Below are positions 8,793-64,000 of a stretch of DNA of 64,000 bases, in pieces (position 1 is the stretch's first letter; each line of letters starts with the position of its first letter). The position numbers were made by a program, and so were the translations under genes. The DNA comes from Gammaproteobacteria bacterium (lineage in GTDB: Bacteria > Pseudomonadota > Gammaproteobacteria > Pseudomonadales > Cellvibrionaceae). The stretch lies in the NCBI GenBank assembly GCA_004172865.1, contig SEBV01000018.1:1-64000 (forward strand), written 5' to 3'. The notes beneath the pieces were generated by a model. That model was not told the DNA's origin. It was given only the letters and a program-made list of their open reading frames with translations, and ran no database searches.

Positions 8793-8819
8793 CGTCATTC
8801 CCGCTGCGCGAGGATGACG
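8793..8819. repeat. REP-like palindromic repeat, copy B
   Basis: CGTCAT (8793-8798) pairs with ATGACG (8814-8819) around CCCGCTGCGCGAG. It is in the metK-ahcY gap, where it could form an mRNA hairpin that separates expression of the two genes. Confidence 0.6.
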
Positions 8820-8857
8820 ACGGATATATAAATATATTCTTGCGAAAGTTTTTAAAA

Positions 8858-10012
8858 TTAAAGCGCTTTCTTCAAAGCTTCAGCCTTATCTGTTTTCTCC
8901 CAGGTGAAATCAGGAAGCTCGCGACCGAAGTGGCCGTAGGCCGCGGTTTGACGATAAATAGGACGTTTCAAATTGAGCATTTGAATTAATCCGCGTGGAC
9001 GCAAATCAAAATGCTCGCGAATTAAGGTAACAATTTCTGCATCAGATAATTTGCCAGTGCCAAATGCATTAACAGAAATTGAGGTGGGTTCAGCAACCCC
9101 AATTGCGTAGCTCACTTGAATTTCCAGACGATCTGCAATGCCAGCGGCTACTAAATTTTTTGCAACGTAACGGCCAGCATAGGCTGCCGAGCGATCTACT
9201 TTTGATGGATCTTTACCCGAAAATGCGCCGCCGCCGTGACGAGCCATGCCGCCGTAAGAATCCACAATAATTTTACGGCCTGTTAAACCGCAATCGCCCA
9301 CTGGGCCGCCGATAATAAATTGGCCAGTCGGGTTGATGTGATATTGCGTACCTGCGTGCAACCATTCTTCTGGCAATACTTGGTTAATAATTAATTCGCG
9401 CACCGCTTCATGAATTTCCGATTGTGTAACATTTGGGCTGTGTTGCGTTGAAAGTACAACCGCATCTACCGCAACAGGTTTACCATTTTCATAACGCAAC
9501 GTTACTTGGCTTTTTGCATCAGGACGCAACCACGGCAATGCGCCGCTCTTACGCAATTGCGCTTGTTTTTCTACCAAACGGTGCGCGTAAAAAATTGGCG
9601 CTGGCATAAGCACTGCAGTTTCGTTTGTTGCATAACCAAACATTAAACCTTGGTCACCCGCACCCAAATCTTTATCATCAGCTTCATCAACACCCATGGC
9701 GATGTCAGAAGATTGTTTGCCGATTGCGTTTAACACTGCGCAAGACGCACCATCAAAACCAACATCACTTGAGTTGTAACCAATATCCAAAATTACCTGA
9801 CGAATTAAATCTTCGAGATCAACATAAGTTGATGTACGCACTTCACCGGCAACAATTGCCATACCGGTTTTTACTAAAGTTTCTACCGCAACGCGTGCGT
9901 TGGGATCATCTTTAATAATCGCATCAAGCACGGCATCAGAAATTTGATCCGCCATTTTATCGGGATGGCCTTCGGATACAGACTCAGAGGTAAATACGGA
10001 ATATTCAGACAT
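8858..10012 (-). CDS. metK: S-adenosylmethionine synthetase
   Basis: MetK makes S-adenosylmethionine from methionine and ATP. The 384-residue sequence has [19 protein letters not shown] near the N-terminus, the [12 protein letters not shown] hexapeptide region, and the phosphate loop [19 protein letters not shown]. Length matches bacterial MetK. The binding site AGGAAAA precedes the ATG. It is directly downstream of sahR (104 bp) and upstream of ahcY, consistent with SahR regulation of the methyl cycle. Confidence 0.97.
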
Positions 10013-56105: not shown

Positions 56106-56379
56106 GACAAATTCCTGAATTATTGGGCACTGGATAAGCGCGTAGGGCCTTGGGCTTCGCAACTTTCATGCCACGCAAATTGCTGCTGGAAAGCTCGAAT
56201 TTGTAGGTTTTCATGGCTTTAAAAGCCATCTACTGAGTGATTTTGTACAGTTCAATCAACAGCTGTTGGAAATTGGCCACTTGCAGTTCATCCAATAAAC
56301 CATAGGTTTGCTGATGGCCGCAGCCGCCACTTTGATAGCGGGAACCTGTTTATAATCGCGATTTTTTCGGTTGCCCTTC

Positions 56380-58113
56380 ATGCGTCTTCCTTCAACAAAA
56401 TCCAGTAGCTATTCCCGTCTACTTATCGATAGTTTTTGCCTGCTGTTATTGCTTGTCATGCTGCTGCTTCCCAATCAGCGCGCCGATGTCACCCTGGACG
56501 CTTTTGTGTATCTTCCACTGGAAGCCGTCGCGCTTGGCTGGATATTGCTGGTGCGTGGACGAATCGGTTGGGCGCTGCGACTTATCGCCTCCACCGCGCT
56601 TGCGCTTGGTCTATTGGTGAAAACCGCCGACATGGCCTGCTTTGAAATTTACGCCCGTCCCTTTAACCCGATTTTCGATGCCTACCTGCTGCGCAATGGC
56701 CTGCATTTACTGGAGGGAGTTTTAGGTTACGTCGGTGCTATTTTGGTAGCGGTGTTTCTAGCGGCATTTGCACTGGGGCTAATCTGGCTCGCGTTCTGGT
56801 TGTTGGGGCGCTTGGCACAACGCCTCGATATCGCCAGACAAGAACTCAAACAATCCTACCGTTTTGCCACCGCGATTTTATTGACCGCAATTCCGGCAGG
56901 ATTATGGCTGGGCGACCGCGCCGCAACGCCGTTTTATGACCTGCTCGCCAGCCATTGGATCGACACCAACGCCAGCATCCAGGAGCTAGCCAATTTCAAA
57001 CATGAGATTGCCGCCAACCGCGACCTGCAAGCAGACTTGCCGGGGCAGCAGCTGTTCAATCGCCTAAAAGGCAAAGATTTTTTGCTCGTATTTATCGAAT
57101 CCTATGGCCGCAGCGCACTGGATAATCCCGAATTTGGGGACCAGTTGCGGCCGCTGCTGCAACAAGGCGGCGAGCAACTTGAAAAAGCGGGTTTGCATAG
57201 CCGCAGCGCTTATCTCACATCGCCCACCATGGGCGGTTTGAGTTGGCTGGCGCAGGGCACAGCGCTATCAGGATTGTGGATCAACAGCCAAGTGCGTTAC
57301 GACAGTTTGGTGATGAGCCAGCGCGCGAGCCTGAACCAACTATTCCGCCGCGCCGGTTGGCGCATGGTTGCGGTCAAACCAGCGATTACCCTGGATTGGC
57401 CGGAAGGTACTTATTTTGGCTACGATCAGGTCTACACCGCGCCCGATCTCGGCTACCAGGGCAAACCTTTCGACTGGGTAACCATGCCCGATCAATACAC
57501 GTTATCCGCGTTCGAAGCGCTCGAACGCAAACCGGGCCAGCGCCCAAATGACAAGCCGGTGATGGCGGAAGTCGCGTTGATTTCATCCCACGCGCCCTGG
57601 ACTCCTGTCCCCAAATTGGTGAGCTGGCAGGACGTGAAAAACGGGAAAATTTTTGATAGCCAGGCAACCAGCGGCGACAGTGCGGAATATGTGTGGCAAG
57701 ACGACGAGCGCATTCGCAGCCAATATCGCCAAGCCGTCGCCTACAGTCTCGAAACGGTTATGTCCTATGCACAGACCTATGGCGACGACAATCTGGTGAT
57801 ACTCGCGTTTGGCGATCACCAACCCGCGCCGCTGGTAACCGGCGACACCCCCAGCCGAGATGTGCCTGTGCATTTAATTGCGCGCGACCCGGCCGTGTTG
57901 GACGCCATCGCCGATTGGCAATGGACACGGGGAATGCTGCCCGACGACCACGCGCCGCAATGGCCGATGAGCGACTTGCGGGATCAGCTGGTCGGTGCAT
58001 TTTCCAATGCCGCACCGGCATTGACGGCTATCCATACGCCTGAACGCGCTGGCATAGAATCTGCTCCGGGCAAGGCTGACACTACTCATCAGCCCCAAAA
58101 GGAACAGCTATGA
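56380..58113 (+). CDS. Membrane sulfatase-fold (LtaS/phosphoethanolamine-transferase-like) protein
   Basis: A 577-residue protein with four to five N-terminal helices (about 10-195) and a large periplasmic sulfatase/alkaline-phosphatase-fold domain. The metal site shows DFLLVFIESYGRSAL (metal Glu), SPTMGGLSWLAQGT with a likely Thr nucleophile, and AFGDHQPAPLV near the C-terminus. This matches the LtaS/OpgB class transferring phosphoglycerol or phosphoethanolamine to glycans or lipids; the exact substrate is not clear. A TTG at 56371 is in frame but the ATG at 56380 is preferred. It overlaps the peroxiredoxin gene by 4 bp. Confidence 0.78.
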   Translation: MRLPSTKSSSYSRLLIDSFCLLLLLVMLLLPNQRADVTLDAFVYLPLEAVALGWILLVRGRIGWALRLIASTALALGLLVKTADMACFEIYARPFNPIFDAYLLRNGLHLLEGVLGYVGAILVAVFLAAFALGLIWLAFWLLGRLAQRLDIARQELKQSYRFATAILLTAIPAGLWLGDRAATPFYDLLASHWIDTNASIQELANFKHEIAANRDLQADLPGQQLFNRLKGKDFLLVFIESYGRSALDNPEFGDQLRPLLQQGGEQLEKAGLHSRSAYLTSPTMGGLSWLAQGTALSGLWINSQVRYDSLVMSQRASLNQLFRRAGWRMVAVKPAITLDWPEGTYFGYDQVYTAPDLGYQGKPFDWVTMPDQYTLSAFEALERKPGQRPNDKPVMAEVALISSHAPWTPVPKLVSWQDVKNGKIFDSQATSGDSAEYVWQDDERIRSQYRQAVAYSLETVMSYAQTYGDDNLVILAFGDHQPAPLVTGDTPSRDVPVHLIARDPAVLDAIADWQWTRGMLPDDHAPQWPMSDLRDQLVGAFSNAAPALTAIHTPERAGIESAPGKADTTHQPQKEQL

Positions 58114-58697
58114 AAATTTACGCCAGCCTCGTCGCACTACTAACTTCGCTCATCTTATCGCTACCCGCATTCGCTGAACCCAAGCTCGGCGAAGCCGTGC
58201 CCCTATTCACTACCCAGGCGTCTTTTGCCGGTAAAGCGCTGGAGTATTCTTTGAAGGATGCCCTCCATAAAGGCCCGGTCGTGGTCTACTTTTACCCCAC
58301 CGCGTTTGGCGGCGGCTGCAGTATTCAGGCGCGCGCGTTCGCGCAAAGCTATGATCAGTTTGTAGCAACAGGAGCGACCATTGTTGGCGTTTCGCTGGAT
58401 GATATTGGCCGTCTCAATAAATTTTCTGCCGACCCGGAATTTTGCGCGAGCCGCTTCCCGGTAGCCTCAGATCCTGATGGCAAAATCGTGACCGCTTACG
58501 GTCTGAAGATCAATGAATCTACCCGTGGCCGCAAAGATATTCGCGGCGAGACGGTAGACCACGGTTCGATTGATCGCTCCACGTTTATTATCGATAGCGA
58601 TGGCAAGTTGATAGCGACTCTGGACGGCCTCAAACCTGCCGACAATGTTGCCAAATCGCTGGAAGCTATCCAACACTTAAGAGCGCACAAAGGCTAG
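58110..58697 (+). CDS. Periplasmic peroxiredoxin with altered active-site motif
   Basis: A 195-residue AhpC/TSA-family protein exported by a signal peptide (1-22, PAFA-EP). The thioredoxin fold is clear: YFYPTAFGGGCSIQARAF with peroxidatic Cys70 after Pro63, and VSLDD and the C-terminal IDRSTFIIDSDG. The usual Thr three residues before the Cys is replaced by Gly (GGGC), which would change peroxide activation. A resolving Cys is possibly that in EFCASRF. It overlaps the sulfatase-fold gene, suggesting linked function or co-regulation. Confidence 0.75.
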   Translation: MKIYASLVALLTSLILSLPAFAEPKLGEAVPLFTTQASFAGKALEYSLKDALHKGPVVVYFYPTAFGGGCSIQARAFAQSYDQFVATGATIVGVSLDDIGRLNKFSADPEFCASRFPVASDPDGKIVTAYGLKINESTRGRKDIRGETVDHGSIDRSTFIIDSDGKLIATLDGLKPADNVAKSLEAIQHLRAHKG

Positions 58698-58794
58698 TTG
58701 CACTGGGCAAGGATGCCCGCAGATGTATCTTAGGGAGGATAAAAAATAGGAAAGGGTTTAAAAAGTTAACTGGAAGCGAGTACTAAACGGAAAG

Positions 58795-59901
58795 TTAGCC
58801 CCGCAAACGCGCGATCAGCGCCGCCACTTTACCCGCTGTATGATGCCAACGCGGCAATAGCGCTCCTGCAGTTCGCGCGCCCTCTTGCAACTTATGTCGC
58901 GCACCCGGTGCAGCCAGCACGCCCGCCAATACTGTAGCCAGACTTTGCACATCCGCCGGGGGCACCAATATGCCCGCATTGGCCGGCACCAATTGCGGAA
59001 CCGCTCCGGCACGGGCCGCGACTATCGGCAAACCAAACGCCAGAGCTTCAGCGAATGCCATACCGTAGCCTTCATAGAGCGATGGCAATACAAACAAATC
59101 CGCATGTCTGAAAGCATCGCTCACATCACCTTCATCTACCGCGCCCGTAACCTCAACGCGATCCTGTAAACCTAAATGTTGAACTTGCGCGCGAATTTGC
59201 GCGGCCCATTCAGGGTCAAGTTCATCACTCCCTACAAAGCGAGCGCTCCAGGGCAATTCGGTGATTTGCGCCAAGGCTTCCAGCAAATAATTATGGCCTT
59301 TACGGCGCGTTAAACTGGCAAGAGTGAGCAAAATTGGCGGATGACCATCGCAGGGCGCGAACACTTGCGGATCTGTGCCTGGCTCGGCAACGGTGATTTT
59401 ATCGGCCGGTACATTGAGCTGGGAACGCAAGCTGTCTGCCGTATCCCGACTGGTTACGACTACTGCCTCGACGGCGGCCAGCGCGCGTTTTTCGCTTTGC
59501 CAAAAATGCGTGCGCTGGGCGGAATTTAAGCCCGTCTCCAAGGCGAGCGGGTGATGGCACAGCGCAATCAATCGCAAGCGTTGCGCCGCACGTTCAGCCA
59601 AGTCGGGCAGAGCGCCCAACGCAAGACCATCCACAATAACCAATGCGCCTGCGGGTAAGTCAGCGAAAACCTGTTGTGCATGTTCGAGTGCGGTCGAATC
59701 CGGGAAGGGAAAACCGGCAGTCAATTGAATCACGTCTACTTTTAATCCCAACACTCCAAGCTCGGCAATCAAGCGACGGTCATAACCGTAACCGCCGGTG
59801 GGCGTCGCCAAATCGCCAGGAACAACAAAAAATACATCGGCAAAACCAACTGTTGGTTCTGCGGGTGGATTATCTGAAACTTCAACAGAGAGCTGTGACA
59901 T
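58795..59901 (-). CDS. Glycosyltransferase family 4
   Basis: A 368-residue GT-B retaining glycosyltransferase. The N-terminal acceptor domain shows DLATPTGGYGYDRRLIAEL, and the donor domain LLTLASLTRRKGHNYLLEAL and LPSLYEGYGMAFAEALAFGLPIVA with the E-x7-E pair. It has no signal peptide. It is divergent from ribA across 278 bp, and the GT4 class is common in antibiotic or glycolipid gene sets. Donor and acceptor unknown. A GTG start at 59910 is an alternative. Confidence 0.85.
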   Translation of the reverse strand: MSQLSVEVSDNPPAEPTVGFADVFFVVPGDLATPTGGYGYDRRLIAELGVLGLKVDVIQLTAGFPFPDSTALEHAQQVFADLPAGALVIVDGLALGALPDLAERAAQRLRLIALCHHPLALETGLNSAQRTHFWQSEKRALAAVEAVVVTSRDTADSLRSQLNVPADKITVAEPGTDPQVFAPCDGHPPILLTLASLTRRKGHNYLLEALAQITELPWSARFVGSDELDPEWAAQIRAQVQHLGLQDRVEVTGAVDEGDVSDAFRHADLFVLPSLYEGYGMAFAEALAFGLPIVAARAGAVPQLVPANAGILVPPADVQSLATVLAGVLAAPGARHKLQEGARTAGALLPRWHHTAGKVAALIARLRG

Positions 59902-60179
59902 GACCAACACCAGACAGTTTAAAAACGCCTATTCTGTGCGCTCCCGACTTGGTTTGCCAGATTTTTCGATGCTTTGAAATCCACAGTTTTTGAATAGAAA
60001 CAAGCAGTTAGCTGATCAATAGCCAACAAATCGACGCAAGTTCACGCATTTACATAACTAATCGCGCCCGCGCCTTGCAGGGTCATCATGAAGGTTTTAA
60101 GATCGTGGCCTGTCATTTGCTGCTACAAAGTTCCACGCTGCGTTAAAGCGATCTATCTCCTACTTCGGTTATCTGCATT

Positions 60180-60905
60180 ATGTCTACGATCCCGGTCTTG
60201 TCTAACATCTCACGCGTCTCTGAACTTCAGAATGAACTTCCCGCAAATGACGAGCGCCCCAAAACGACGGTAATCCGTCAGGCTTCAGCGCGCATCCCGA
60301 CTCGCCACGGCGATTTTCAGTTGGGTTTTTACAGCAACAACATCGACCAGAAAGAACATTTGGCGTTTTTTCGCGGCGATATTGATGGCCAGACGGCGGT
60401 ATTGGCGCGCGTCCATTCCGAATGTTTTACCGGCGATGTGATGGGTTCGCTGCGCTGCGATTGCGGCGAGCAACTGGATCGTTCATTGGCGTTAATCGCT
60501 AAAGAAGGTTCCGGTGTGGTGGTCTACTTGCGTCAGGAAGGTCGCGGTATTGGATTATTGCAAAAACTGCGCGCCTACAATCTGCAAGATCAAGGTTACG
60601 ACACAGTGGATGCCAATCTGATGCTCGGCCACGGCGCCGATGAGCGCGATTATTCGCTGGCAGCTGCCATGTTGGCCGATTTAGGCATAGAATCAGTTCG
60701 GCTGATGACCAACAACCCGTTGAAAATTCAAGCGCTGGAAGCCGAGGGCGTGCAAGTTGTTGAGCGCGTACCTCTGGAACCAAGCCCTAATAATGAAAAT
60801 CGCGGTTACTTGCTCACCAAGGCCAAACGCATGGACCATCTGTTCTTGAACAGCAATTTCGCACCTAATTCAAACCAGTCTCATGACGCCCAATCAAAAA
60901 ATTGA
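60180..60905 (+). CDS. ribA: GTP cyclohydrolase II
   Basis: This zinc enzyme opens GTP to 2,5-diamino-6-ribosylamino-pyrimidinone phosphate, formate and pyrophosphate. Zinc ligands Cys82, Cys93 and Cys95 are present, with RQEGRGIGLLQKL for catalysis. At 241 residues it has a 30-residue N-terminal and a 30-residue C-terminal extension over classic RibA (about 200). The housekeeping copy is probably elsewhere, because this one sits beside a stand-alone RibD reductase, an MDR dehydrogenase and a PTPS homologue. No FMN riboswitch precedes it. Its 3' end overlaps the next gene by 23 bp. Confidence 0.9.
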   Translation: MSTIPVLSNISRVSELQNELPANDERPKTTVIRQASARIPTRHGDFQLGFYSNNIDQKEHLAFFRGDIDGQTAVLARVHSECFTGDVMGSLRCDCGEQLDRSLALIAKEGSGVVVYLRQEGRGIGLLQKLRAYNLQDQGYDTVDANLMLGHGADERDYSLAAAMLADLGIESVRLMTNNPLKIQALEAEGVQVVERVPLEPSPNNENRGYLLTKAKRMDHLFLNSNFAPNSNQSHDAQSKN

Positions 60906-61620
60906 ACAATGGCTGACAACTGCCAAACACAGTTTCAGCACCGCCGAGCGACCCTTCGTCACCCTTAGCTATGCCCAGAGTTTGGACGGCAGCATAGCCT
61001 TGCGTTGTGATGAACCCCTGGCACTCAGCGGACGTCAATCCTTGCAACTCACCCACCAGCTGCGCAGTTTGCACGATGGCATTTTGGTGGGCATAGGCAC
61101 GGTAATAAGCGATAACCCGCAACTCACGGTGCGTCATTGGGAAGGTGTAAATCCGCAACCTATAGTGCTCGACAGCAAATTGCGCATGCCGATCACCGCG
61201 CGCCTGCGCCATTCGCCCGATAAAACCTGCTGGGTCTTAACAACCTGCGAAGGCGAAAATGCACGCGAGAGTGAATCCGACCTAGACCACAGCCAAGGCC
61301 TTGAAATCACTGCCTTGGAAGGCAATGCCGATGGTCGCGTTTGCCTTGAAGGCGCGCTTAAATTGCTGCGTCAAAAAGGCATTACCAGTTTGATGGTTGA
61401 AGGGGGAGCCGCCGTTATTACAGCATTCCTTAAAGCACAACTGGCAGATGCAATCGTCATCACATTGGTGCCTAAGCTTGTCGGCGGCTACAAAGCCGTT
61501 AATGATCTCGGCGTAAGTAGCAAAGCGGCTTTGCCCGCGATATCACCCTTATTCAGCTCGCCGCTTGGCGACGATCTGGTCGTTTGGGGCCAGCTTAGTT
61601 ACGGCGACGGCCTGCAATGA
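60883..61620 (+). CDS. RibD C-terminal-like reductase (stand-alone)
   Basis: A 245-residue protein matching only the reductase half of bifunctional RibD. It shows RPFVTLSYAQSLDGSIA, DGILVGIGTVISDNPQLTVR and LMVEGGAAVI, all in the dihydrofolate-reductase-like fold. No cytidine-deaminase-like half is present, so it reduces but does not deaminate. Known relatives reduce the ribosylamino-pyrimidine made by RibA, or act on pterins. Overlap of 23 bp with ribA and 4 bp with the MDR gene shows tight coupling. Confidence 0.85.
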   Translation: MTPNQKIEQWLTTAKHSFSTAERPFVTLSYAQSLDGSIALRCDEPLALSGRQSLQLTHQLRSLHDGILVGIGTVISDNPQLTVRHWEGVNPQPIVLDSKLRMPITARLRHSPDKTCWVLTTCEGENARESESDLDHSQGLEITALEGNADGRVCLEGALKLLRQKGITSLMVEGGAAVITAFLKAQLADAIVITLVPKLVGGYKAVNDLGVSSKAALPAISPLFSSPLGDDLVVWGQLSYGDGLQ

Positions 61621-62660
61621 CTCATCCCACTGCAACACCGATTACCGCCAGCCAACTCTGGTTTACCCAACTGCGTCAGGTAGAAATCCGTCCGCAAATG
61701 CTTAGCCCGGCTGCTGGCGAAGTGCTGGTGCAAACTTCTTGTTCGGCCGTTAGCGCAGGCACTGAATTGTTGGTGTATCGCGGCCAGCTGCCAGACAATC
61801 TCGCACTCGACGCCACTATCGCCAGCCTGCAGCAAGCGCCGCAATACCCGCTGCAATATGGTTACGCGGCCGTCGGTAAAGTGTCTCAAGTTGGCGACGG
61901 TGTTGATGCGCAGTGGCAGGGGAAACGTGTATTTTCCTTCGCGCCCCACGCCAGTCATTTTGTAAGCCAGCCGCAAGATTTGATTCCCGTACCGGATGAT
62001 ATCGACGATGAAGCCGCGATTTTCCTCGCCAATATGGAAACTGCCGTTAACCTCGTACAAGACGGCAAACCCGCCTTGGCAGAGCGCGTGGTTGTTCTGG
62101 GCCAAGGTATTGTGGGCTTACTGCTCACCGCCGTGCTCGCGCGATTTCCTCTTAAGCAATTGCTAGCGGTGGATAAAGTGCCGGAGCGTCGTGCCCTGGC
62201 GCAGCAACTGGGTGCTCATCTAGCGCTTGACCCTGATGCTGTTGCGCAAAAGCAAAAATCCGAGTTTGTAGACGGTGCCGATTTGATTTACGAAGTCAGC
62301 GGCGTGCCGCAAGCGCTCAACCTTGCGATTGATCTCAGTGGTTTTGCGAGCCGGTTGGTGATTGGCAGCTGGTACGGCAACAAATCCGCGCCCATCGTTT
62401 TAGGCGGCGCGGCGCATCGCAACCGCCTGCAGATTATTACCAGCCAAGTCAGTAGTATTGCGCCCGAACTCAGTGGACGCTGGAACAAAGCGCGTCGTTT
62501 CGATGTGGCTTGGCAGCTGATTCGCGACTTACGACCCGAGCGTTTAATCAGCCATCGTCTCAAGATTACTGACGCGGCTGGGCTATATGAACGGCTGGAT
62601 AAACAACTGGATGAAACCCCGCAAGCCATGGTGCAAGCGGTGTTTGTTTATCCATCCTAA
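61617..62660 (+). CDS. Zinc-less medium-chain dehydrogenase (MDR superfamily)
   Basis: A 347-residue MDR-superfamily protein. The cofactor-binding VVLGQGIVGLLLTAVLA and DKVPERRALAQQLGA match NAD(P)-dependent family members. The catalytic zinc site is lost: the region that usually holds C-G-x-C-G-x-D reads AVSAGTELLVYRG, and the GHE motif is replaced by YGYAA. Substrate unknown. It overlaps the RibD-like gene by 4 bp and is followed 45 bp later by the PTPS homologue, in one operon. Confidence 0.8.
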   Translation: MTHPTATPITASQLWFTQLRQVEIRPQMLSPAAGEVLVQTSCSAVSAGTELLVYRGQLPDNLALDATIASLQQAPQYPLQYGYAAVGKVSQVGDGVDAQWQGKRVFSFAPHASHFVSQPQDLIPVPDDIDDEAAIFLANMETAVNLVQDGKPALAERVVVLGQGIVGLLLTAVLARFPLKQLLAVDKVPERRALAQQLGAHLALDPDAVAQKQKSEFVDGADLIYEVSGVPQALNLAIDLSGFASRLVIGSWYGNKSAPIVLGGAAHRNRLQIITSQVSSIAPELSGRWNKARRFDVAWQLIRDLRPERLISHRLKITDAAGLYERLDKQLDETPQAMVQAVFVYPS

Positions 62661-62705
62661 CCCTACTTTTATCTAATTGCCTCAACCGAATAAGCAGGAA
62701 ATTCT

Positions 62706-63095
62706 ATGTACACACTTGCGGTAACTCGCGATTTTATTGCCAACCATTACCTTATTGGCGGCGACTGGGGACCAGAAAATAACCCACATGCACATCACTA
62801 CGTGGCCGAAATCAGCATAGAAGCCCAGCAGTTGGATCGCCACGGTTATCTGGTGGATATCGTCGATGTTGAAGCTGCGCTCGATGAAATCATCGGCTAC
62901 TTCAATAACAGCACACTCAACGAAAAAGTGGAATTTACGGGCCTGAATCCCAGCATCGAACATTTCAGCCGCATTCTGAACGAACAATTATTGGGCCGCA
63001 TCAAGCCGCCGGGTTCGGGTGTGTTTACCGTTAAATTGTGGGAAAACGCGACTTGCTGGGCGGCCTTTCGGCAGGCATTTCCCGTCGCAGGCTAA
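62706..63095 (+). CDS. PTPS/QueD-family protein with Cys-to-Glu active site
   Basis: A 129-residue 6-pyruvoyltetrahydropterin synthase/6-carboxytetrahydropterin synthase homologue. Zinc ligands His14, His28 and His30 are in place. The residue four before the HxH pair, normally the catalytic Cys, is Glu24 (PENNPHAHH). In the known PTPS-III variants the same replacement is linked to making 6-hydroxymethyl-dihydropterin. So this is not an ordinary QueD. It closes the ribA-led operon. Confidence 0.82.
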   Translation: MYTLAVTRDFIANHYLIGGDWGPENNPHAHHYVAEISIEAQQLDRHGYLVDIVDVEAALDEIIGYFNNSTLNEKVEFTGLNPSIEHFSRILNEQLLGRIKPPGSGVFTVKLWENATCWAAFRQAFPVAG

Positions 63096-63100
63096 AAAAC

Positions 63101-64000
63101 TCAGGTAGATTGCGCAAGGCCGTTTGGCGTGCGCTCTACCCATCGCAGACAGATAAAACCGCCGAGGATTAACGCCAGATCGCGGCAGCGCATTAGCAAG
63201 ATCAAACTCCCCGCAGTGGCAGCGGATAAATCGAGCAAGGTGCAAGCGCCAAATACCGCCGCTTCCAGCGCACCCAAGCCAGCAGGCACAGGCACAAATT
63301 GCGCGAGCCGCAGCGCCAGTGCCAGTAACACAAACTCATCCACCGTCAGCTGCACGTTTACCATAGTTAACAGCAACGCCAACTCTGACAGCACCAGCAC
63401 CCAAACCCCGAGCGACAAGCCAATTCCAGCCAGCCATAATCCGGGCGTTTGCAGCAGGCTACGCAAGCTCGCCAACGGACTTTGATCCGATGAATTGATA
63501 TAAGCCGCCAAACGCGGATGCGCTCGCCATTTCGCCATCAAAGGTGCGCAACGGTCCGCTAGCCAGCCCGGCTGCCAGCGCCACCATAATAATAAAACCG
63601 CGACGGGAATAATTAACAACCAACTCGCGCCCGGCAAAACCGGAGACACTAACTGGTTAAACCGCGAATCCAGTAAGAGCACTAATCCTAAAGCCAATAC
63701 TGAAAGATTGATCCCCAATTCCAACAACCGATCCAACCCCAAGGCGACCAGACATTTACTGAGGGATAAGTTTTGGCGCGCGAGCCAATACAGCTGTAGC
63801 GGTTCACCGCCCACTTGCGGGCCGGGCGTAAGCATATTCACCACTTGCCCGGCTTGGCGAATCACCAATAAACGATAGAAAGAAAAAGGCGCGAAATGCG
63901 TTAGAAACAGCCACCACCGCAAAGTCGCGAGGTGAAGCAGTAACAGATTCAGCCCCAACCATAGCGGCCATTGCCACCATGCAAGATCGCCGAGGCGTTG
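63101..64000 (-). CDS. Lysylphosphatidylglycerol synthase-type membrane protein (partial)
   Basis: The open frame continues beyond the window's right edge, so the N-terminus is missing. The visible 300 residues have seven to eight predicted membrane helices and the UPF0104/LPG_synthase_TM features: RLLVIRQAGQVVNMLTPGPQVGGEPLQLYWL (gate region, seen here in part as TPGPQVGGEP) and PVPAGLGALEAAVFG. These proteins flip lipids or lipid-linked compounds. It is convergent with the PTPS gene (5 bp gap), and lies next to a GT4 and pteridine-type enzymes. Confidence 0.75.
   Translation of the reverse strand, partial: QRLGDLAWWQWPLWLGLNLLLLHLATLRWWLFLTHFAPFSFYRLLVIRQAGQVVNMLTPGPQVGGEPLQLYWLARQNLSLSKCLVALGLDRLLELGINLSVLALGLVLLLDSRFNQLVSPVLPGASWLLIIPVAVLLLWWRWQPGWLADRCAPLMAKWRAHPRLAAYINSSDQSPLASLRSLLQTPGLWLAGIGLSLGVWVLVLSELALLLTMVNVQLTVDEFVLLALALRLAQFVPVPAGLGALEAAVFGACTLLDLSAATAGSLILLMRCRDLALILGGFICLRWVERTPNGLAQST

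Follow-up and report, generated by a model that had tools for sequence, protein, structure and literature searches.

The gene set described here lies at the end of the window, the stretch of 64,000 nucleotides of contig SEBV01000018.1 (Gammaproteobacteria, Cellvibrionaceae) that was analysed as a whole. It comprises genes for a GT4 glycosyltransferase, GTP cyclohydrolase II (RibA), a RibD homologue, a medium-chain dehydrogenase/reductase (MDR), a homologue of 6-pyruvoyltetrahydropterin synthase (PTPS) and a flippase-like membrane protein of the UPF0104/LPG_synthase_TM family, which runs over the window edge and beyond which lies a gene for a CDP-alcohol phosphatidyltransferase (CDPOH; Table 1). 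Open reading frame (ORF) calls and Pfam gave the six window genes, their families and their strands as in the original prediction, together with overlaps of 23 bp between RibA and RibD (60883-60905) and 4 bp between RibD and MDR (61617-61620); MDR and PTPS are separated by 45 bp. The RibD homologue has the reductase domain only, its deaminase domain being absent (Pfam). As had also been stated, the rest of riboflavin synthesis is missing at the locus, where none of the eight proteins tested by Pfam from 56371 to 64000 was RibB, RibH or RibE, and no flavin mononucleotide (FMN) riboswitch was seen, with no Rfam family reaching its gathering score in the window or in loci L004 and L005. Promoter and terminator scans of the region stayed at chance level.

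Table 1. Genes of the set and its neighbours in the window and just past its edge
Gene	Position	Strand	Evidence and remarks
Membrane sulfatase/alkaline-phosphatase-type gene	56371-58113	+	PF00884, 26.8 bits; membership uncertain
Peroxiredoxin-like gene (AhpC-TSA)	58110-58697		flanked by the sulfatase-type gene and GT4
GT4 glycosyltransferase	58795-59910	-	PF00534 Glycos_transf_1, 112.3 bits, 2.3e-32; divergent from RibA
RibA, GTP cyclohydrolase II	60180-60905	+	PF00925 GTP_cyclohydro2, 232.7 bits, 2.1e-69; NCBIfam TIGR00505, 270.4 (cut-off 205.85)
Reductase-only RibD	60883-61620	+	PF01872 RibD_C, 135.5 bits, 2.6e-39
MDR dehydrogenase, putatively zinc-less	61617-62660	+	ADH_zinc_N, 41.3 bits, 1.8e-10 (Pfam)
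PTPS homologue	62706-63095	+	PF01242, 85.3 bits, 4.1e-24; signature WGxENxxHAH
LPG_synthase_TM, flippase-like membrane gene	63101-64000, on to C192:64090	-	PF03706, 100.2 bits (cut-off 33.4), 1.9e-28; NCBIfam TIGR00374, 58.8 (cut-off 43.2)
CDP-alcohol phosphatidyltransferase (CDPOH)	C192:64094-65236, just past the window edge	-	PF01066, 47.2 bits, over cut-off

A pattern scan returned 55 loci with an MDR, 43 of which (L006-L048) are close relatives from Gammaproteobacteria, Chloroflexota, Desulfofustis, Methanohalarchaeum and one haloarchaeon, and ORF clustering added a methyltransferase (MT), CDPOH and a membrane sulfatase-type protein as recurring partners. Using an MDR profile at thresholds varied from 1e-35 to 1e-60, with sister MDRs among the weaker matches, we obtained matches in 69 of 116 Halobacteria, 46 of 197 Actinomycetes, 38 of 201 Chloroflexota, 12 of 247 Desulfobacterota and, with the window's own genome included in both counts, 21 of 369 Gammaproteobacteria and 27 of 398 Pseudomonadota. 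The loci inspected were an author-chosen part of these matches, namely 18/69 Halobacteria, 15/21 Gammaproteobacteria, 9/27 Pseudomonadota, 12/46 Actinomycetes and additionally one Amycolatopsis, 20/38 Chloroflexota and 1/12 Desulfobacterota (L040), and sister MDRs accounted for four of the 12 Actinomycetes and five of the 20 Chloroflexota.

The tally comprises 105 MDR-subfamily loci from five bacterial groups and archaea, labelled by record title or by the clade searched (L012, titled Rhodoferax, is counted with the Gammaproteobacteria), with partners counted within 8 kb of the MDR gene. PTPS was found at 100 of the 105 loci, GT4 at 90, MT at 63, RibD_C at 62, RibA at 53, GTP cyclohydrolase III (GCH III) at 10, either cyclohydrolase at 63, CDPOH at 53, the first flippase profile at 28, the sulfatase-type gene, a frequent neighbour in Gammaproteobacteria, at 21 and a creatininase-family gene at 10; these counts lean towards detection because the cut of 340 bits was set after the scores had been seen and the profiles underwent one rebuild from these very loci, they are lowered in part by contig ends, and they include twice one locus on two contigs of one metagenome-assembled genome (MAG; L029 and L030). 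After a second flippase profile, the LPG_synthase_TM gene was present in 45 of 106 loci, eight of them from Actinomycetes. Left out of the tally were the 12 weak MDR matches of the pattern scan (L049-L060) and the loci below 340 bits, of which L111, L039 and L046 have partners and nine, sister MDR loci of lower score, lack all of the tallied ones. The latter represent a partner-free sister MDR subfamily in Actinomycetes and Chloroflexota (L130, L132, L135, L136 and L149-L153). The neighbourhood supposed in the original prediction is thus conserved, with MT and CDPOH as further partners.

Gene order and strand vary among the loci, RibD_C being often inverted, CDPOH adjacent, divergent or distant, and RibA and RibD_C fused in some, and most of the set is retained in three genomes of 1.0-1.1 Mb. 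Pairwise distances of PTPS (rho 0.88), RibD_C (0.89), CDPOH (0.86) and RibA (0.77) correlated with those of the MDR, compared with label-shuffle maxima of 0.09-0.22 from a null that ignores relatedness. Homology between the gammaproteobacterial MT group and the remaining MT groups was shown by hhalign (99.5 per cent). By group, CDPOH was found at 25/35 and 11/14 loci of the two gammaproteobacterial sets, at 9/18 in Halobacteria and at 6/9 in Actinomycetes.

In haloarchaea, GCH III (PF05165), a family unrelated to RibA, replaces RibA in 10 of the 18 loci. Considering that GCH III presumably leads to the same kind of pyrimidine as RibA, the constant element appears to be the substrate route. HVO_1282 and HVO_1283 are the putative haloarchaeal PTPS and MDR. 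Two haloarchaeal layouts were seen, either GCH III-MDR-PTPS, mostly followed by GT4, or CDPOH-MDR-PTPS-GT4-MT, and L086 has all of these genes in one place. We compared whole genomes of eight haloarchaea of the first layout, which have neither MT nor CDPOH at the MDR, with nine MDR-less haloarchaea, three of which are 1.9-2.5 Mb in size and for which completeness is not given. Both MT and CDPOH were encoded elsewhere in all eight genomes with the MDR, and either one in none of the nine without it, a pattern with a chance of 1 in 24310 if the genomes were independent, although they are related. The unlinked MT and CDPOH genes adjoin each other in seven of the eight genomes and lie apart in G088, where CDPOH adjoins a GT4 gene, the gene that is missing from the MDR locus of G088.

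The original prediction had left it to a search of the genome whether riboflavin is made elsewhere, and a separate complete operon was confirmed on contig C30. Both further GTP_cyclohydro2 matches of the genome lie there, and Pfam on nine ORFs gave a RibD that has both the deaminase and the reductase, a riboflavin synthase (lumazine-binding protein), a DHBP synthase-GTP_cyclohydro2 fusion, DMRL synthase, a stand-alone RibA, NusB, PgpA and NrdR. FolE of the same genome is found on C38, so that both riboflavin and the entry to folate are covered outside the set. Based on this separation and on the conserved neighbourhood, the set almost certainly belongs to a dedicated GTP-derived pathway distinct from riboflavin. 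This part of the original prediction stood, while the pteridine or pyrimidine that it named as the product stays a prediction.

The best solved match of the RibD reductase was 2azn (1.1e-25), an archaeal enzyme that acts before deamination. When the deaminase part of the RibD on C30 was used as the query, the loci gave a single match of 24 bits (L131). This near-absence of a RibD-type deaminase suggests that the 2-amino group should stay on the ring, as in pterins. Judged from these families, opening of GTP followed by reduction of the ribosyl to a ribityl chain with the 2-amino group kept is likely.

The structural model of the MDR (predicted local distance difference test, pLDDT, 89.7) matched RspB and butanediol, idonate and galactitol-1-phosphate dehydrogenases in Foldseek. 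In an alignment with RspB (4ilk), whose relevant stretch is weak (6.0 bits), the zinc-site Cys and His are replaced by Ala and Tyr, respectively, and on this stretch the MDR appears to be zinc-less, outside the zinc-dependent alcohol dehydrogenases. Several Arg, His and Lys residues are invariant or nearly so, and these would suit phosphate binding. Since polyol and secondary-alcohol dehydrogenases make up most of its nearest relatives of solved structure, the MDR more probably oxidises the ribityl chain made by the RibD-type reductase, and the reducing role that the original prediction had suggested for it is less likely.

The model of the PTPS homologue (pLDDT 91.5) matched Streptomyces SCO6650 (3d7j) best and QueD next, and 3d7j is the best solved relative of the window protein by both sequence and fold. 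Among 104 sequences, His14, Asp51 and Glu85 are invariant and Glu113, by its position presumably the pterin anchor, is kept in 103. The place of the catalytic Cys is taken by Glu in 68 and Ala in 36 sequences and by Cys in none, and at the Asp-His pair, located through an alignment with 2dj6, Asp occurs in one sequence and His in none. The protein thus looks like a PTPS-type enzyme that has kept the pterin-anchoring Glu and lost the catalytic residues of PTPS to replacements. With ExxxHAH, the window protein lacks the motifs given in PMC5041015 for PTPS-I/QueD (CxxxHGH, the Cys being missing from its place in 104 of 104 sequences), PTPS-II (CxxxxxHGH) and PTPS-III (ExxHGH, from which the Glu of the window protein is one residue further away).

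The nearest described group is PTPS-IV (COG0720, with SCO6650 and 3d7j). In PMC5445326, PF00925 and PF01872 are reported near a PTPS-IV cluster of 561 sequences with no demonstrated product, and the window has both families beside its PTPS. That source calls PF00925 FolE2, the family being GTP cyclohydrolase II in Pfam. In place of the PTPS-IV signature FGPAQ (PMC5445326), the window protein has WGPEN, and FGPAQ occurs in relatives with the same partners. Two main signature classes were seen, WGxENxxH[AS]H, which the window protein shares with its kin, and FGPAQxxHGA in Actinomycetes and most loci of the Gammaproteobacteria and Pseudomonadota profile searches; some Chloroflexota have a signature unlike both. 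The window form (WGPEN..HAH) differs from the other (FGPAQ..HGA) in that Glu stands in for the Cys and the three zinc His are all present, yet loci with FGPAQ also have MDR, GT4 and MT as partners. Because both classes share these partners, PTPS-IV is tied to the pathway. The novelty claimed in the original prediction has to be given up in part, as PTPS-IV with PF00925 and PF01872 is already in print, without a product (PMC5445326). The set is a conserved one of several bacterial groups and haloarchaea, published in part as PTPS-IV.

The original prediction had glycosylation and a lipid attachment as possibilities, and both gained support. In CDPOH, the residues of DxxDGxxAR...GxxxDxxxD, the CDP-alcohol phosphatidyltransferase motif, are invariant in 11 of 11 aligned sequences. 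Since this gene lies just outside the window and recurs at half of the tallied loci, the lipid link is firmer than first thought, and GT4 at 90 of the 105 loci argues for a sugar. Among the matches listed, no NCBIfam equivalog reached its cut-off for the CDPOH, GT4 or MT proteins tested (GT4: best 25).

Taken together, our best single reading, held tentatively, is that the set converts GTP into a glycosylated and methylated pterin-type head group on a membrane phospholipid. RibA, or GCH III in many haloarchaea, would open GTP to 2,5-diamino-6-ribosylamino-pyrimidinone phosphate, and the deaminase-less reductase would turn the ribosyl into a ribityl chain with the 2-amino group retained. The steps after the reductase we infer. 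The MDR would oxidise one of the secondary hydroxyls on the ribityl phosphate (the 2'-OH being the simplest choice) to a ketone, the same ketone that GTP cyclohydrolase I (GCH I) reaches by an Amadori rearrangement. The 5-amino group could then close on the ketone to form a 6-substituted 7,8-dihydropterin, for example dihydroneopterin 3'-phosphate, without GCH I. The PTPS-like enzyme may help this closure or reshape or trim the side chain, the odds of these middle steps being slightly below even. For the last steps we lean slightly towards GT4 adding a sugar, MT a methyl group, CDPOH coupling the head group to CDP-diacylglycerol or CDP-archaeol, and outward flipping of the lipid by the LPG_synthase_TM protein. 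The product might thus represent a novel membrane-lipid class, in which a phospholipid has as its head group a glycosylated, methylated pterin made by a GCH I-free route. It would be placed in the outer leaflet, possibly serving as a membrane redox cofactor, and would be shared by haloarchaea, Actinomycetes, Desulfobacterota and Pseudomonadota (among these some with genomes of roughly 1 Mb), perhaps also by Chloroflexota; this full picture is somewhat less likely than not.

Several observations weigh against the lipid-linked pterin. Neither RibA nor GCH III was found within 8 kb at 42 of the 105 loci, and a PTPS match is absent from L042 (Methanohalarchaeum), L108 and L155, L028 and L146 ending too near. 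CDPOH was found at none of the 18 Chloroflexota loci, the truncated Chloroflexota locus L039, which has it, standing outside the count, and at one of nine loci of the Pseudomonadota search (other Pseudomonadota). The distances of GT4 and MT correlate weakly with those of the MDR (rho 0.39 each), and the closure of the ring, the sugar, the site of methylation and the transfer to lipid all belong to the predicted part. Furthermore, 11 of 15 cluster genomes have FolE, from which dihydroneopterin phosphate could also arise, so that the detour needs a reason, and in the Creative Commons-licensed literature of PubMed Central we found neither an isolated product of the set nor the full gene set or a pterin lipid. 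The low and patchy counts of CDPOH (0/18 and 1/9 above), together with the greater constancy of GT4, MT and PTPS, would agree with a soluble glycosylated pterin or pyrimidine, presumably of the cyanopterin kind, with the CDPOH and flippase-like genes serving a neighbouring envelope pathway. Considering that haloarchaea, Actinomycetes, Desulfobacterota and Gammaproteobacteria repeatedly have CDPOH next to the set, and that an unlinked CDPOH accompanies the MDR in 8/8 haloarchaea as against 0/9 without the MDR, such a soluble product is rather unlikely.

The known pterin and flavin routes explain the set less well. That the set serves as another way into folate or into some other known pterin would agree with a predicted route that ends in a dihydropterin and with the four of 15 cluster genomes without a FolE match, but FolE is present in the other 11, the window's included, and GT4, MT and CDPOH would be idle; as the sole folate entry the set was rejected, and as an alternative one it is very unlikely. 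A role in making a precursor of coenzyme F420 was suggested by PMC5041015, where PTPS-IV is called an F420 enzyme with reference to unpublished work, without data. CofD (TIGR01819) is indeed present in 13 of 31 cluster genomes, haloarchaea and Actinomycetes among them, but it is missing from the other 18, which are 17 of the 18 Pseudomonadota and Desulfofustis. The window genome lacks it, as do all nine well-completed Pseudomonadota, the sole Pseudomonadota carrier being a MAG (G010). GT4, MT and CDPOH are not known to have a place in F420 synthesis. F420 was therefore rejected for the Pseudomonadota tested and is highly improbable for the set overall. That the genes are scattered riboflavin genes without a pathway of their own is scarcely credible, although RibA and RibD_C are riboflavin families. 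The original prediction would have fallen back on this had the genome no other ribA and the neighbours been unconserved together, and neither was the case, with the operon on C30 complete and the neighbourhood conserved across phyla. In Haloferax, deletion of the GCH III gene arfA (HVO_1284) causes riboflavin auxotrophy according to PMC8305020, so that GCH III of haloarchaea may be an enzyme shared with riboflavin synthesis.

By family, the first two steps of the proposed pterin-lipid route are those of archaeal and fungal riboflavin synthesis (GCH II or III and 2,5-diamino-6-ribosylamino-pyrimidinone reductase, to whose archaeal form, 2azn, the reductase is nearest), but MDR and PTPS would then take the place that deaminase, lumazine synthase and riboflavin synthase have in riboflavin synthesis. 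With tetrahydrobiopterin and folate synthesis (GCH I, PTPS) the set has in common an enzyme of the PTPS fold and, as predicted, a dihydropterin, in contrast to which it starts from GCH II or III and the catalytic Cys and Asp-His pair of its PTPS are replaced. It resembles the synthesis of phosphatidylinositol and phosphatidylinositol mannoside (PIM)-type glycophospholipids in having a CDP-alcohol transferase with an intact motif and a GT4, and differs in its head group, predicted to be GTP-derived, and in the lack of NCBIfam equivalogs noted above. Based on the MDR matches in more than half of the Halobacteria (69/116) and in Actinomycetes, Chloroflexota, Desulfobacterota and Gammaproteobacteria, it appears that bacteria and archaea commonly have a pathway for which no product is known. 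Finding the product would make clear what PTPS-IV does and account for many genes now probably annotated as 6-carboxytetrahydropterin synthase, zinc-binding dehydrogenase or riboflavin enzymes.

Among further neighbours, YceI genes lie near the set at seven of 106 loci (L112 6089-6730 and six others) and cytochrome b561 genes at nine of 106 (L123 4467-5087 and eight others). They are few and partly from related genomes, and hint at a redox role, which would fit a redox function of the lipid. Creatininase-family genes, presumably ArfB-like by family, stand beside RibA at the 10 loci counted above (L102 13765-14538; L126-L128, L133), as if a formyl intermediate needed opening. At L042 in Methanohalarchaeum, where PTPS was not found, the part fused to RibA (8793-9986) aligns poorly with RibD_C and a creatininase-like ORF is nearby. 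In Saccharospirillum and one MAG, MdoG and MdoH genes for periplasmic glucan come after the set, as identified by Pfam at L018 (13464-16951) and by ORF clustering at L031, L032 and L036. A search for defence systems was negative, with a PADLOC match for 0 of 7 proteins. Beside the window cluster MT is absent, the genome's MT lying on another contig (C227:348063-348854), and the AhpC-TSA gene occupies the slot that MT has in other Cellvibrio-type loci. Finally, eight haloarchaeal loci have near CDPOH a small membrane protein of one family, assigned to DUF7475 in L095, for example at L084 6536-6937.

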